Source of the DNA: Thomasclavelia spiroformis DSM 1552
GTDB lineage: Bacteria > Bacillota_I > Bacilli_A > Erysipelotrichales > Coprobacillaceae
Direction of reading: 5' to 3'
Assembly (NCBI RefSeq): GCF_025149465.1
Contig: NZ_CP102275.1
Span: forward strand, 1,736,001 to 1,800,000
Length of the DNA stretch: 64,000 nucleotides
Shown here: in pieces, positions 25,826 through 57,435 of the stretch
Position numbering within the stretch: the first letter of the stretch is position 1
Layout: each line of letters begins with the position of its first letter
Program-made: the position numbers and the translations under genes
Notes under the pieces: generated by a model
The model's input: the letters and a program-made list of their open reading frames with translations, nothing else
Told to the model about the DNA's origin: nothing
Databases searched by the model: none

Positions 25826-25901
25826 GGAGGTTTAGCTCAGTTGGGAGAGCATCTGCCTTACAAGCAGAGGGTCAGCGGTTCGAGTCCGTTAACCTCCACC
25901 A
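25826..25901 (+). tRNA. tRNA-Val (anticodon TAC)
   Basis: Cloverleaf with GGAGGTT/AACCTCC acceptor stem, anticodon loop CTTACAA, T-loop GGTTCGAGTCC and encoded CCA. 76 nt. Confidence 0.97.
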
Positions 25902-25917
25902 TTAAAATAAAAAATAC

Positions 25918-25993
<76 letters not shown>

Positions 25994-25997
25994 TGAT

Positions 25998-26081
25998 GGA
26001 GGAGTAGCGAAGTGGCTAAACGCGGCTGACTGTAACTCAGTTCCTTTCGGTTCGGTGGTTCGAATCCGCCCTCCTCCACCA
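25998..26081 (+). tRNA. tRNA-Tyr (anticodon GTA)
   Basis: Acceptor GGAGGAG/CTCCTCC, anticodon loop CTGTAAC, long variable arm typical of bacterial tRNA-Tyr, encoded CCA. 84 nt. Confidence 0.97.
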
Positions 26082-26087
26082 TCTTCT

Positions 26088-26163
26088 TGGGGTATAGCCA
26101 AGCGGTAAGGCAACAGACTTTGACTCTGTCATCTCCCTGGTTCGAATCCAGGTACCCCAGCCA
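26088..26163 (+). tRNA. tRNA-Gln (anticodon TTG)
   Basis: Acceptor TGGGGTA/TACCCCA with discriminator G, anticodon loop CTTTGAC, encoded CCA. Confidence 0.97.
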
Positions 26164-26167
26164 ATAT

Positions 26168-26243
26168 GACCCGCTAGCTCAGCCGGTAGAGCATCTGACT
26201 TTTAATCAGAGGGTCAGGCGTTCGAATCGCCTGCGGGTCACCA
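26168..26243 (+). tRNA. tRNA-Lys (anticodon TTT)
   Basis: Acceptor GACCCGC/GCGGGTC, anticodon loop CTTTTAA, encoded CCA. Confidence 0.97.
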
Positions 26244-26299
26244 TTTCTTAAAAAATATCTTGCATATATTAATTATTTATGTTAATATAATAGAGCGAT

Positions 26300-26373
26300 G
26301 CGGGTGTAGTTCAATGGTAGAACTTCAGCCTTCCAAGCTGACTACGTGGGTTCGATTCCCATCACCCGCTCCA
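26300..26373 (+). tRNA. tRNA-Gly (anticodon TCC)
   Basis: Acceptor GCGGGTG/CACCCGC, anticodon loop CTTCCAA, encoded CCA. It is separated from tRNA-Lys by 56 bp that contain a TATAAT box (26286-26291) without a well-spaced -35, so it may have its own weak promoter. Confidence 0.97.
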
Positions 26374-47115: not shown

Positions 47116-48060
47116 TTAACCTATTTTAGGCTTATAAAAAGATCTATTTTCTAACGCAAAAACTCTTTTAGAAAAACTTCCTGGCTCAATTGTTTCTAAA
47201 GCTTTTTCTAACATATTAATTCTCGCATCCATATTATCAATCAAATAAATAATCTCAGCCTCTTTTACTTGTGGTAATACTGGTGAACCAAATTCATTTT
47301 TACCATGATGTGACAAAATCATATGTTGTAATAAGGTAACTTCTTCACCTTCAATATTCATCTTATCAGCCATTTCTTTAACCATTGCTTGCGAAATTGA
47401 AATATGCCCCAACAATTTACCTTCAATCGTATATTCAGGTACAACAGGACCGCTTAACTCAACAATTTTTCCTAAATCGTGTAATGTAATCCCTGCAAAA
47501 AGTAAATCTTTATTTAATGTAGGGTATAAACTACATAGGGCGTCAGCAATTTTTAGCATACTATACGTATGATGAGCCAATCCAGATACATATTCATGGT
47601 GATTTTTACTCGCTGCAGGATAAATTGTTAATTTATCAAGATGTTCTTTAAATAATACTTTAACCAATTGATTTAGTTTTAAATTATCAATACGATCAAT
47701 ATATTTCATAATTTCACCAATTAATTCTTGCCCAGTTTTTGGAGCACTTTTTAAATATTTTATTTGTTCTTTAGGATCATTTGATGCAACATGAATTTTT
47801 ATAATTTTCATTTGTCGATCCTCATTATATTTAATAATATCACCTTTAACATATACAACACTTCCTACTGTAAGAGTTTCCACCTGTTCATTAGTAGCAT
47901 TCCAAAGTTTTGCATCGATCAATCCTGTAACATCTTGTAATGTCATACTCAAATATGTTGAACGATTAGCTCCATTTGTTTTACCTGTTACAACTCGATT
48001 GATTAAAGCTTCAATTACAACACTTTCATCGCCTGGTTTTAATTCATTTATCTTATTCAT
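47116..48060 (-). CDS. yhaM: 3'-5' exoribonuclease YhaM
   Basis: 314 residues: N-terminal OB-fold (about 10-90, YLSMTLQDVTGLIDAKLWNA) for nucleic-acid binding and C-terminal HD domain with metal ligands in GLAHHTYSML, LHDLGKIVE and LSHHGKNEFGSP. Degrades RNA and single-stranded DNA from the 3' end. Its start overlaps the end of the glycosyltransferase-RecX gene by 8 nt, so translation is coupled to that unusual gene. Last gene of the operon. Confidence 0.94.
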   Translation of the reverse strand: MNKINELKPGDESVVIEALINRVVTGKTNGANRSTYLSMTLQDVTGLIDAKLWNATNEQVETLTVGSVVYVKGDIIKYNEDRQMKIIKIHVASNDPKEQIKYLKSAPKTGQELIGEIMKYIDRIDNLKLNQLVKVLFKEHLDKLTIYPAASKNHHEYVSGLAHHTYSMLKIADALCSLYPTLNKDLLFAGITLHDLGKIVELSGPVVPEYTIEGKLLGHISISQAMVKEMADKMNIEGEEVTLLQHMILSHHGKNEFGSPVLPQVKEAEIIYLIDNMDARINMLEKALETIEPGSFSKRVFALENRSFYKPKIG

Positions 48061-50041
48061 CCTCTAGTGCTCCTTCTTTATTCATAATTTCTTTTATATC
48101 TTCATAATTATAACCTTTTCTTAATAAATTATTGATAATTTTTTCTTTCAATTGGTTAGTATCATATTTTTTTGAATATTTCTTTTTTTGTTTAATAAAC
48201 TCTTTTTCTAAAGCATTGTGTTCTTTTTCGTAATCAAATTCAAAATCATAATCAGACAAAGCTTTTTCAATTGCTTCATTTGTAAAACCTTTTATATACA
48301 ATTTATCACGAATTTTCTTTAACATTGCTTTATATGAAAAACCAATATTACGATTATAATAAGTATCAATTATTTTAGTAGCAGCAAGATATTCATCATC
48401 AAAACTATTCTTTTCTAAACATTGATCAATTATTTCATCACTAACTCCATAATTGCGCAAATTATAAATTGCTTTATTTAAACCTACACCTAATCTTGTA
48501 CAACGTTTAAGATAATTCATTGTATATTCTTCATCATTAATCAGATTCTTGTTTTGAAGCAATTCTAGTGTAGTATCAAGTTGTGCATCATCATAATTAC
48601 CACTATCCATCAACTTTTTTTTCATTTGATTATAAGTATAATCTTTAATTGTCAAAAATTTTAAAGCTTTATTATATGCTCTTGTAACTTGTTCATGATC
48701 TTTTAAAATATCAAAAGTCTCTTTGCTTATTTCTTTTCCTATCTCTAAATCATATGATCTAATAATTTTATCACTTAACTCTAAGATTATTTCACTTTCA
48801 TCAAATAAAAAAACAACTTCATTCATAGTATCTTTTATTTCATATATTGATTTAACTTTATACGTATAATACTTTTGTTTAATTGCTAGTTTATAAACAT
48901 CAATAACTTTTTCATAAAATACCTCGCTACTAAATTTCATAGCATGTAAATATGCTTCTCTTGCCATATTTGAACAATCACTATTCATCATATTTAATAA
49001 AATAGATACTAATTCATTTGTTTCTTTAAAAAAATATCCATTTACTCCATCAATAATTACATTCTCCAGATTTTGATCATAGCGAGCAACTGCAGGTATA
49101 CCACTGGCCATAGCTTCAATATATGTTAATCCTTGTGTTTCTGTAACTGAAGCAGATACAAACACATTTGAAAGATGATAGTAACTAGGAACTTCTTGAC
49201 TAGGTTTTGGGCCCGTAAAAATTATATATTTTTCAATCTGATCATCTTTGACTAATTCTTTTAATTCATCTAAATATGGTCCACCGCCTACAATTAGGCA
49301 TAATATATTATCATTTTCTTTTACAATTTCTTTCATTGCATCAATTAATACATCAATGCTTTTTTCTTTAGCTATACGTCCTAAAAAAGTAACAATAAAT
49401 TGTTCTTTAATTCCATATTTTTCTTTAATTTGATTAATTAATTTATCATCTTTATTTTTAGGATTAAATTTATCTAATTCTAAGCCAGTTGGTATAATAT
49501 GCATATTTTTATGTAACCCATATTTCTCCAGCGCTTCTTTTGTTTTAATAGAAGGAACTATTAATTCTGCACTTTTATCTCCATAAAACTTACTAATCCT
49601 TGTAATTGCTTTTTTTATCAATCCATCTATTGCTGTAGAATTAATTGGATTTACATAATGAGAGTAATCAGCCCACATTGTATGATATGTATATACGACT
49701 GGAATATTTAATGCTTCTCCTACAATTCTTCCAAATATCCCAATTCCAAATTCGGTTTGTACATGAATAACTTCAATATTCATACTTTTAATTTCTTTCA
49801 TTCCTTTAAACGAATATATATTACATGCTCGATATCCATATAATGCCTGAATTTCTAATCCAGGTACTCTTAAAATATTATCATTTGGATCATCTTCATA
49901 ATCACTTTCACTAGGCAATTCACTTGTAACTACTAAAACTTCATGACCATGTTTAATTAACTCATCTTTTAAAATCTTAGTAGAAGTGGCCACCCCATTT
50001 ATATCTGGTGTATATGTATCTGAAAAAATTGCAATTCTCAT
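48053..50041 (-). CDS. GT4 glycosyltransferase fused to a full-length RecX domain
   Basis: 662 residues in one uninterrupted frame. Residues 1 to about 385: GT4 (GT-B) enzyme of the diglucosyl-diacylglycerol synthase type, with MRIAIFSDTYTPDINGVATS, HTMWADYSHYV, IIPTGLELDKF, FLGRIAKEKSIDVLIDA, and the donor-binding Glu region SASVTETQGLTYIEAMASGI. Residues about 390-662: RecX, with VVFLFDESEIILEL, YDLEIGKEIS, AYNKALKFLTIKDYTYNQMK, LLQNKNLINDEEYTMNYLKR and a third repeat near the end; about 270 residues, the full size of RecX. RecX inhibits RecA filaments, so pairing with lipid glycosylation is unexpected. Start: GGAG is 7 nt before the ATG at 50041; the ATG at 50059 is rejected. Confidence 0.88.
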   Translation of the reverse strand: MRIAIFSDTYTPDINGVATSTKILKDELIKHGHEVLVVTSELPSESDYEDDPNDNILRVPGLEIQALYGYRACNIYSFKGMKEIKSMNIEVIHVQTEFGIGIFGRIVGEALNIPVVYTYHTMWADYSHYVNPINSTAIDGLIKKAITRISKFYGDKSAELIVPSIKTKEALEKYGLHKNMHIIPTGLELDKFNPKNKDDKLINQIKEKYGIKEQFIVTFLGRIAKEKSIDVLIDAMKEIVKENDNILCLIVGGGPYLDELKELVKDDQIEKYIIFTGPKPSQEVPSYYHLSNVFVSASVTETQGLTYIEAMASGIPAVARYDQNLENVIIDGVNGYFFKETNELVSILLNMMNSDCSNMAREAYLHAMKFSSEVFYEKVIDVYKLAIKQKYYTYKVKSIYEIKDTMNEVVFLFDESEIILELSDKIIRSYDLEIGKEISKETFDILKDHEQVTRAYNKALKFLTIKDYTYNQMKKKLMDSGNYDDAQLDTTLELLQNKNLINDEEYTMNYLKRCTRLGVGLNKAIYNLRNYGVSDEIIDQCLEKNSFDDEYLAATKIIDTYYNRNIGFSYKAMLKKIRDKLYIKGFTNEAIEKALSDYDFEFDYEKEHNALEKEFIKQKKKYSKKYDTNQLKEKIINNLLRKGYNYEDIKEIMNKEGALEDE

Positions 50042-50051
50042 ATATTTACTC

Positions 50052-51074
50052 CTATCCATTTATTTCTCTATCAACAGCAAAAACTAGACCTCCTAATATT
50101 AATCCCAAATAATAAGTAACAAAACGCCAAATCAATAATGTGGTTGGTGTCCCAATTTCTCCAAGTACAGGGGAAAATAACATAAAATAAACACCTTCAC
50201 TACCTCCACTTGCTCCAGGAATTGGGACAAAAGCAGTTATCATATATACAAAGGAACATATTCCAATAAATTCAGCTAATTGTCCAATAGAAACATTTAA
50301 ATACAAAGCTTTAGCTGCAAAAAAAGGAATACTATACATAATTATTAATTTAAACAAATTAATAACTGATGACTTAATCAAGACACTTTTATTATGCTGT
50401 AAAATATTTAATTCTCTTCTAAAATTTTCTAAAGATCTAGTTACTTTAATAGAAGTGTCTGTATAACTTTTAACAATTCTAATTTTACTTAAAAATCTAA
50501 TAACATTATTACAAATAAAATTTTGAAGTCTCTTTGATTTAGCTCCTAAAAACAATCCAGTAATTACAAAAAAATTAATTAAAAAACCAATAATTGCTAA
50601 TGAAAAAAAACCAGTATATCTATCACTATAAATATTATATTTAAAAAGCATGACAGATGCTGTAAATATAACTAAAACACTTTGATATACAATAAATACC
50701 ATTAATAATATACTTGCAGAATTCGCAGGAGAAATACCCTGTCGATTAAATATATACACCTGAGCAAATTGTCCTCCACTAGAAAAAGGAGTTATACCAT
50801 TAAAAAAAGTTCCAGATATAGCATTTTTAAATCCCTGTTTAAAACTATAATGTTTTTTATACAATCTTCCAAATATATATAAATTAATTCCATCTAAAAT
50901 ATAATAAATACCCATTAAAAATACTGAAAATACAATCCAAAGAGGCGATGCATTTACTAATGCTTCCAATGATGCTTTTAGGTCATCTTTCATAGTTAAA
51001 TATATAACTAATATTCCTAATGATAAAATCAACACAATATTAAAAATATATTTTTTTTTAGATTTTTTTTCCAT
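50052..51074 (-). CDS. Lysylphosphatidylglycerol synthase TM-region/flippase-like membrane protein (UPF0104)
   Basis: 340 residues with about seven to eight membrane segments. Motifs of the MprF-membrane-domain/AglD2 family: GISGTFFNGITPFSSGGQFA-like (AISGTFFNGITPFSSGGQFAQ region) and VPIPGASGGSEGVYF. No synthase domain is attached, so it may move a glycolipid or other lipid across the membrane. GAGGTG precedes the ATG. It sits between two GT4 genes, which suggests a common glycolipid pathway. Confidence 0.87.
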   Translation of the reverse strand: MEKKSKKKYIFNIVLILSLGILVIYLTMKDDLKASLEALVNASPLWIVFSVFLMGIYYILDGINLYIFGRLYKKHYSFKQGFKNAISGTFFNGITPFSSGGQFAQVYIFNRQGISPANSASILLMVFIVYQSVLVIFTASVMLFKYNIYSDRYTGFFSLAIIGFLINFFVITGLFLGAKSKRLQNFICNNVIRFLSKIRIVKSYTDTSIKVTRSLENFRRELNILQHNKSVLIKSSVINLFKLIIMYSIPFFAAKALYLNVSIGQLAEFIGICSFVYMITAFVPIPGASGGSEGVYFMLFSPVLGEIGTPTTLLIWRFVTYYLGLILGGLVFAVDREING

Positions 51075-51084
51075 AAACTCACCT

Positions 51085-52092
51085 CTAGTTAGAGTTTAAA
51101 ACTTGATTATAAACATCACATAACTCCTTACCAATTATTGATAATTCTTTTTTCTTAGCTACCTCATAGCCATTATTAATTAATGATGGATATTCACCGC
51201 TTATCATTTTCTTTATAATAGAGACAAAATCACTGGTATTTTTACCCATATAACAATTTTCTTTGTCTTTCAACCAGCTAGAAAATACAGGAATATCTCT
51301 TAATAAAATATTACATTTACTTGCAAGAGCTTCTAAAACAACAATTCCCTCAGTTTCTTCTCTAGATGGGAAGAAAAAGATATTACATCTACCATAAGCT
51401 CCTTTAATAATATCACCACTTACATATCCTGGTAAAATTAAATTAGGAGGCAAATTATCTAATAAATCTTTAATTTTTTTTGTAGGATGAGATAATTTAA
51501 TGTCACCAAACCACATAAATTTATAATTAGGTAGTTCTCTTGCCACTTCAACAAATGTATCAAAACCTTTGCGTTCAAATAACCAACCGACAGATATAAT
51601 TAAAATATCATCATCATCAATATTATATTCTTTTTCAAAAGCCTTAATTTGATTAACTTGAGGATTAAATTGCTTTAAATCAATTCCATTAGAGATAGCA
51701 CTTATCGGTACATTAATACCATACGATTCTAGTAGTTGTTTCGAATATTCAGTTGGAGTAATAATATAGTCACCTTTACTATACAAATTAATTAGCCATT
51801 TTTTATATATTCCAGAAATAGAATTTGAAAACATAAATGAATTTCTAAAATCTTCTTCTGTACTGTGCGCATGATAAACTATTTTTTTATTATTTTCTTT
51901 AGCCTGATTTATCATTTTAAAGCTATCAGGCCAAATTGTGTTAATATGCAATATATCATAATCTAAATCATCTTTGTCAGTAGTATATGCAATATTATTT
52001 AATTCTAATGCCTTTTTTTGATGAATAAAGGCACGCCCAATTCCAGATTTCTTTATTGTATCTTCTTGTCCAAAATATAACTTAATTTTCAT
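51085..52092 (-). CDS. GT4 glycosyltransferase, probable monoglucosyldiacylglycerol synthase
   Basis: 335 residues. SGIGRAFIHQKKALELNNI, LHINTIWPDS, YHAHSTEEDFRNSFMFSN, ITPTEYSKQLLESYGI, AISNGIDLKQFNP, and the donor-binding ETEGIVVLEALASK match the first enzyme of the pair that builds glucosylated diacylglycerol in Gram-positives; the second would be the GT4-RecX protein. The products normally anchor lipoteichoic acid. GGTGAT precedes the ATG. First gene of the operon; galU at 61.6 kb could supply UDP-glucose. The exact sugar is inferred. Confidence 0.83.
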   Translation of the reverse strand: MKIKLYFGQEDTIKKSGIGRAFIHQKKALELNNIAYTTDKDDLDYDILHINTIWPDSFKMINQAKENNKKIVYHAHSTEEDFRNSFMFSNSISGIYKKWLINLYSKGDYIITPTEYSKQLLESYGINVPISAISNGIDLKQFNPQVNQIKAFEKEYNIDDDDILIISVGWLFERKGFDTFVEVARELPNYKFMWFGDIKLSHPTKKIKDLLDNLPPNLILPGYVSGDIIKGAYGRCNIFFFPSREETEGIVVLEALASKCNILLRDIPVFSSWLKDKENCYMGKNTSDFVSIIKKMISGEYPSLINNGYEVAKKKELSIIGKELCDVYNQVLNSN

Positions 52093-52186: not shown

Positions 52187-52216
52187 AAAAAAAGATACCG
52201 GAGAAGGTACCGGTAT
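52187..52216 (-). terminator. rRNA operon terminator
   Basis: ATACCGG/CCGGTAT stem followed by CTTTTTTTG on the minus strand, about 40 bp after the 5S gene. Confidence 0.85.
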
Positions 52217-52251: not shown

Positions 52252-52361
52252 AACCGGCAGCTTGCTATTGTCGCACCGCAGTACTATCGTCGCCGTTATG
52301 ATGCTTAACTTCTGTGTTCGGTATGGGTACAGGTGTGTCCATCATGCTATCGCTACCAGAT
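52252..52361 (-). rRNA. rrf: 5S ribosomal RNA
   Basis: Terminal helix CTGGTAGC/GCTGCCGG and the conserved ACCCATACCGAACACAGAAG region. Ends are approximate. Confidence 0.95.
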
Positions 52362-52438
52362 CTTCTCTTTTAAGCAATTCCTTTCGAGAATCACTCAAAA
52401 CCGGATAATAGCTCCTATTGCTTCTTCTTCTCTCTTTA

Positions 52439-55350
<2,912 letters not shown>

Positions 55351-55572
55351 CGGTGTCTTGATCACTATTTCCTTCTTACTGACTGTTTCAGTGTTGAATT
55401 CTCTTAGTTTTCTTTCGACTTTCTCTAGAAAGACCTCAATAATTTTCTTATCTCGATCTCTTTCTTTCGCAATTTGTCTATTATCCAGTTTTCAATGATC
55501 TCTGAGCTTCTCTCTTCTTCGAGTTTCACTCAAAACTAAACAGAATCTTCTCCACACTTCCTCTTCTCCTTA
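55351..55572 (-). other. 16S-23S spacer with processing stems
   Basis: No tRNA. AAAACTAAACAGAAT complement at 55532-55546 pairs with the leader at 57170-57184 (15 bp) to enclose 16S; 55478-55492 pairs with 52397-52411 (one G-U) to enclose 23S. These are the expected RNase III processing stems. The common block ATCATTGAAAACT occurs before both rRNAs. Confidence 0.75.
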
Positions 55573-57097
<1,525 letters not shown>

Positions 57098-57435
57098 TCC
57101 TTTTATCTCTCTCAGACAATTTCCTGTCTGTTTAGCTCTTCTTTTTTTCTCTTTGACGTGTGTTCTTTAATTCTGTTTAGTTTTCAATGATCTCTCTTGC
57201 TTTTTCAAGCGCAAACTAATATTAACACCTTTATTTACAAATGTAAAGTTTTTTTTACAAAATGTATTAATTTTTTTTACTTTTAAACTTATTAGTCTTT
57301 TATATTATTTACAATTATTCATTTTTTATACAAAAATAACAACATAATTAAAATATTTAACAAAATAAAAAGAAACTATATCAAATATAACTTTATTAAA
57401 AAGTTAATTTGCTACAGCTTCTTCTTTTATAATAT
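57098..57435. other. rRNA leader and upstream region, no gene
   Basis: The left part (57098-57215) is the 16S leader. The right part is very AT-rich and holds the rrn promoter and probably an UP-like A/T tract. No clear nifJ terminator was found; nifJ ends at 57436 on the same strand, so its transcript may run into the rrn operon. Confidence 0.5.
57219..57247 (-). promoter_or_regulatory. rRNA operon promoter
   Basis: TTTACA, 17 bp, TAATAT on the minus strand with A/T tracts upstream, about 120 bp before the 16S gene. Confidence 0.7.

Follow-up and report, generated by a model that had tools for sequence, protein, structure and literature searches.

A conserved fusion of a glycolipid-type GT4 glycosyltransferase and RecX in Thomasclavelia spiroformis and most Erysipelotrichales

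Thomasclavelia spiroformis DSM 1552 encodes, in one open frame, a GT4 glycosyltransferase resembling monoglucosyl-diacylglycerol synthase (Mgs) and the only RecX of the cell. We consider it probable that this is an ancient two-domain protein, that it arose where two genes overlapped, that each half still does its ordinary job, and that the arrangement has been kept for co-expression. The gene was found in a stretch of 64,000 nucleotides, referred to below as the window, and belongs to an operon with the following features (window coordinates):

47116..48060, minus strand, yhaM-type 3'-5' exoribonuclease gene (NF010007, 374 bits, under the cut-off of 460)
48053..50041, minus strand, GT4-RecX fusion gene (662 aa, single open frame; the family consensus starts here)
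48068..48865, minus strand, RecX domain (residues 399-664; a small beta domain, then helical three-helix repeats)
48872..50041, minus strand, GT4 domain, monoglucosyl-diacylglycerol-synthase-like (residues 7-396; EX7E motif E307-E315)
50049..50053, minus strand, Shine-Dalgarno AGGAG of the fusion gene
50052..51074, minus strand, flippase-like membrane protein (LPG_synthase_TM), the upstream neighbour in the operon
51085..52092, minus strand, second GT4, an IagA/BgsA-type glycolipid glycosyltransferase (NF053513, 488 bits, over the cut-off of 460)
52194..52216, minus strand, terminator-like hairpin separating the 5S rRNA gene from the glycolipid/RecX operon

The longest reading of the fusion frame, 50059..48053 on the minus strand, gives 668 aa, and residues are numbered here on that reading. 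The start at 50041 (Met7, ATGAGA) is better than the one at 50059: AGGAG lies upstream of it at 50053-50049, and in the alignment of relatives the family consensus MxIALFSDTY opens exactly at this residue. The only stop codon of the frame is the terminal one at 48053, and none lies between the two parts. A preliminary description of this DNA had reported a GT4 enzyme and a complete RecX joined without stop or frameshift in a membrane-lipid operon. Both points were confirmed: the frame runs from 50041 to 48053 on the minus strand, and its same-strand neighbours include the second glycolipid GT4 and the flippase-like protein. The yhaM-type gene and the end of the fusion gene share 8 nt. Just upstream of the glycolipid/RecX operon lies a complete 16S-23S-5S rRNA operon (window 52252-57098, minus strand); the 5S gene ends at 52252, the second GT4 starts at 52092, and the hairpin (52216-52194) is placed between them. 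The 23S rRNA also contains two short ORFs at 52838-53188, which are spurious. Six tRNA genes are clustered at window positions 25826-26373 on the plus strand.

The GT half matched PF00534 (6e-33) and PF13439 (3e-25). Its best NCBIfam family by far, and the top full-length one, was NF049988, monoglucosyl-DAG synthase (266.6 bits, profile positions 1-391 of 398), in agreement with the glycolipid-synthase type first proposed for it; since this score is under the curated equivalog cut-off of 400 bits, we class the half as Mgs-like and not as Mgs. EX7E is the motif of retaining GT4 enzymes, and both of its glutamates (E307 and E315) were invariant across the 49 sequences of the alignment of relatives. 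The fold of this half in the AlphaFold model is GT-B/GT4, with structural matches to MshA, BshA and PimA.

The RecX part comprises about 266 aa. Tandem RecX_HTH three-helix repeats were detected by sequence in the C-terminal half (residues ~400-664): RecX_HTH1 (3e-12, 46.7 bits) and HTH3 (3e-8, 34.1 bits) pass the cut-off of 26 bits, and HTH2 (1e-4, 22.5 bits) is slightly under it. The RecX family NF010733 matched with 132 bits (E 2.5e-38), short of its curated equivalog cut-off of 240; this cut-off was passed by none of the 296 genomes of the class, stand-alone RecX included, and is therefore narrow and not decisive for RecX identity. Modelled by itself in AlphaFold, the RecX half was predicted with high confidence (mean pLDDT 90.6). 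In a fold search the best six PDB matches were all RecX (3d5l, E 3.5e-10; 3e3v, 3dfg, 3c1d), ranging to E 1.2e-4, and the next PDB match reached only E 0.045. A sequence search recovers most of those RecX entries. Absence of a RecX fold would have told against the original reading; structure prediction gave a RecX fold for the C-terminal part and GT-B for the GT half. RecX has been described as restraining RecA filaments in other bacteria (PMC3527212, PMC9252578). A single RecX match was found in the T. spiroformis genome, the fused one, which rules out a second RecX elsewhere; the Pfam HTH2 model alone missed even the fused RecX. The recA gene is sited away from the fusion locus (RecA, 550 bits, at G000:C1:623390). 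A free-standing state is usual for RecX, if not strictly defining, and here RecX is instead the C-terminal domain of a frame of 662-668 aa.

The search of related genomes proposed in the preliminary description recovered the same two-domain protein. The fused frame is present in all eight same-genus assemblies sampled, where identity is 74-83%. RecX matches were present in 142 of the 147 Erysipelotrichales genomes sampled, essentially one each, and in 129 of these 142 the frame around the match was 600 aa or longer, as counted by frame length from the table; the GT and RecX make-up was checked directly in 53 distinct proteins. These 53 align across the junction nearly gap-free, and the junction length is near constant. 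Among 392 genomes of the phylum, matches spanning both halves were confined to Erysipelotrichales; named relatives include Thomasclavelia, Massilimicrobiota, Longibaculum and Stoquefichus. Median dN/dS within the genus was 0.085 for the GT half, 0.13 for the RecX half and 0.105 for the junction, rough values with synonymous sites near saturation. Both halves are, on these ratios, under purifying selection, and the fusion, judged by its conservation, is genuine and ancient, not recent. In one genome, from a family of its own (L069:3446-5325, G066), a stop or frameshift breaks the GT half and the RecX half is open; this is either a pseudogene or a mistake in the assembly. For two genomes with a listed completeness of 98-99% (G056, G069), there were zero candidates for GT4, RecX and RecA; the assemblies or the searches may be faulty, and we do not take these blanks as evidence.

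The origin of the fusion can be read from relatives in three families of the class (f8, f10, f19), which keep the order flippase, GT, RecX, YhaM and have GT and RecX as separate genes in 13 of 13 loci. RecX lies in the +1 frame of GT in every one of these loci and overlaps or abuts the end of GT. In nine of the 13, RecX starts with a GTG whose distance to the end of the GT stop codon is exactly 22 nt, and GAGGT or GGAGGT closely precedes this GTG, within the last GT codons. By this pattern the unfused GT-recX genes are a translationally coupled overlapping pair. In the ancestral state, a GT gene would thus have been followed by an overlapping, coupled recX that used the +1 frame and began some 22 nt ahead of the GT stop. 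This overlap explains a fusion by frameshift: we infer from the unfused relatives that a net frameshift within it brought recX in frame with GT, a single time, in the order's ancestor. The separate recX start was lost afterwards, as the sequence pattern shows, so that RecX would be made 1:1 with GT from the GT start. In the GT tree the 47 fused and two unfused rows (L057, L068) form one clade (SH-aLRT 97) requiring three changes, which is consistent with one gain of the fusion and two later separations. The RecX tree is weaker, with long branches, and has the same outline. The idea of a chance fusion by loss of a stop survives in part: it suits the ancient origin, as a frameshift in the overlap, but the fusion has been kept from the ancestor of two families onward. 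A second GT-RecX fusion was suspected in 650-aa frames of one f8 genus (g111) and rejected, as the GT is C-terminal there and RecX is a separate gene. In this genus a related GT4 (L112:2147-4099, G236) has about 255 extra N-terminal residues that are weakly alpha/beta hydrolase-like, again with RecX separate.

In the reading we favor, the GT half would glucosylate diacylglycerol at the inner membrane face, making the first glucolipid, and the RecX half would curb RecA filaments. The fusion would persist mainly as a fixed form of the earlier co-expression, 1:1 where the coupling had been looser. Glycolipid GT4 enzymes of the Mgs kind are monotopic membrane enzymes; if the GT half follows the usual pattern of its class and binds the membrane, RecX is located there too, and this tethering would be a by-product. 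It could also be the point of the fusion, with glycolipid synthesis or membrane state controlling RecX, for example through tethering at the inner membrane, and with RecA filaments restrained away from the membrane or at it, or released when the GT detaches. We regard such functional coupling as unlikely. The monotopic nature of the enzyme class is in keeping with it, as are an adjacency that is older than the fusion and kept in several families, and a fusion retained across the order with its junction near constant in length; so wide a retention may also reflect selection for a physical link. Co-expression alone, however, accounts for the adjacency, no conserved extra regulatory element was seen at the junction, and the two halves have been lost independently of each other. 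RecX has outlived the GT in nine genomes of four genera (g21, g23, g27, g59), in which it adjoins yhaM and no Mgs-like GT is found anywhere; a relocated GT was ruled out, as these genomes have either no match or remote GT4s, at 24-28% identity. Conversely, one genome (G107) keeps the GT and has RecA with no detectable RecX.

The second glycolipid GT is likewise absent from all nine RecX-only genomes; some genomes with the fusion or the GT (G039, G107) lack it too or show only a weak match, which makes the link a loose one. A contig end truncates the locus of one further genome (G078). In another (L059:2761-3918, G080) a RecX of 385 aa carries about 110 N-terminal residues, and its start has a good Shine-Dalgarno sequence. 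This stretch matched the GT at 5.6 bits, collinear with the GT start and with 1 of 2000 shuffles scoring higher; that it is a decayed GT remnant is suggestive only. The halves are apparently not mutually dependent: the one-sided losses indicate that the GT can be dropped while RecX is kept, as would be expected of two modules that share a transcript and are each useful alone. Lineages keeping one half without the other thus weaken the real link between envelope and recombination that had been raised as an option. Together with co-expression, they make such a direct link possible and not required, and we doubt that RecX is a membrane-anchored RecA regulator dependent on glycolipid synthesis and kept as such since the ancestor of the order.

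The gene product is best read as one polypeptide chain, because the start signal at the junction has been lost and the junction has no linker. The full-length AlphaFold model had a mean pLDDT of 87.1 and a pTM of 0.61, a modest value at which the position of one half relative to the other is not confidently predicted. In this model residue 396 closes the last GT helix and residue 399 opens the RecX beta domain, without linker or disorder, in line with the linker of only a few residues first described. Cleavage after translation into GT and free RecX, which would make the frame a delivery format only, was one of two later events initially proposed. It is improbable in our view: the halves are each complete and independently foldable, and lineages with separate halves exist, but only about two residues (397-398) lie between helix and strand in the model, with no disordered linker to cut, and no obvious conserved cleavage motif was seen across the 53 aligned junctions. 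Internal initiation, the other event proposed, would yield a separate RecX from the fused gene much as in the unfused relatives, where recX starts within the GT gene behind a Shine-Dalgarno sequence. That signal has been erased from the fused genes. A start codon with a Shine-Dalgarno sequence of at least 4 nt occurs near the junction in 11 of 53 of them, which is background when set against 136 of 530 interior control windows, and no conserved start position near the junction was found among the 53; at the true 5' ends, the same combination occurs in 52 of 53. The sole start codon at residues 380-430 of the T. spiroformis fusion is an ATG at 412, which has no real Shine-Dalgarno sequence and lies inside the RecX beta domain. 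The scan against background windows and true starts thus leads us to reject an internal start, which we consider very improbable.

That an assembly or sequencing error merged two genes is practically out of the question, for although single-base errors are able to merge overlapping frames, this frame recurs in eight further assemblies of the genus and in members of two families, and the window comes from a complete single-contig genome. Conservation within the genus, the order and the phylum sampling rules out both sequencing error and a chance fusion. The refuting case named at the outset, separate genes in relatives together with one sequencing error, is excluded within the order; in another sense it holds, as the more distant families have separate, overlapping genes that show how the fusion came about.

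The component domains and folds are already known. No description of a GT4-RecX fusion was found in the open-access literature searched; a metaproteome paper naming RecX concerns other species. In nearly the whole of an order of gut Bacillota, RecX, a universal recombination regulator, would exist only as the tail of a lipid enzyme, which raises the question of whether it acts at the membrane. The locus also offers a clean case of overlapping coupled genes turning into a domain fusion, in which one can follow the unfused relatives, the fused genes, the later re-separations and the losses of one side. For annotation it is a warning, as a gene labelled glycosyltransferase in Erysipelotrichales is the RecX, or the reverse.

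Three known systems are close to the fusion. The unfused flippase-GT-recX-yhaM operon (f8, f10, f19; L093-L101, L104-L106, L111) has the same genes in the same order and on the same strand; it differs in that two separate, overlapping genes encode a GT of about 390-413 aa and, in the +1 frame, a RecX of about 210-290 aa. Alpha-monoglucosyldiacylglycerol synthase (Mgs, NF049988), an Acholeplasma-type GT4, shares the GT4/GT-B fold, the EX7E motif and glycolipid operon neighbours, whereas the T. spiroformis protein scores under the equivalog cut-off, bears RecX at its C-terminus, and has a putative acceptor and sugar. The long RecX of Bacillota (PDB 3d5l, 3e3v), that of B. subtilis being given as 264 residues (PMC3527212), has the same helical-repeat fold, length and N-terminal beta domain, and is likewise single-copy with RecA in the same genome. 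It is ordinarily a free protein, in contrast to the RecX of T. spiroformis, which has no start of its own and forms the C-terminal domain of a glycosyltransferase.
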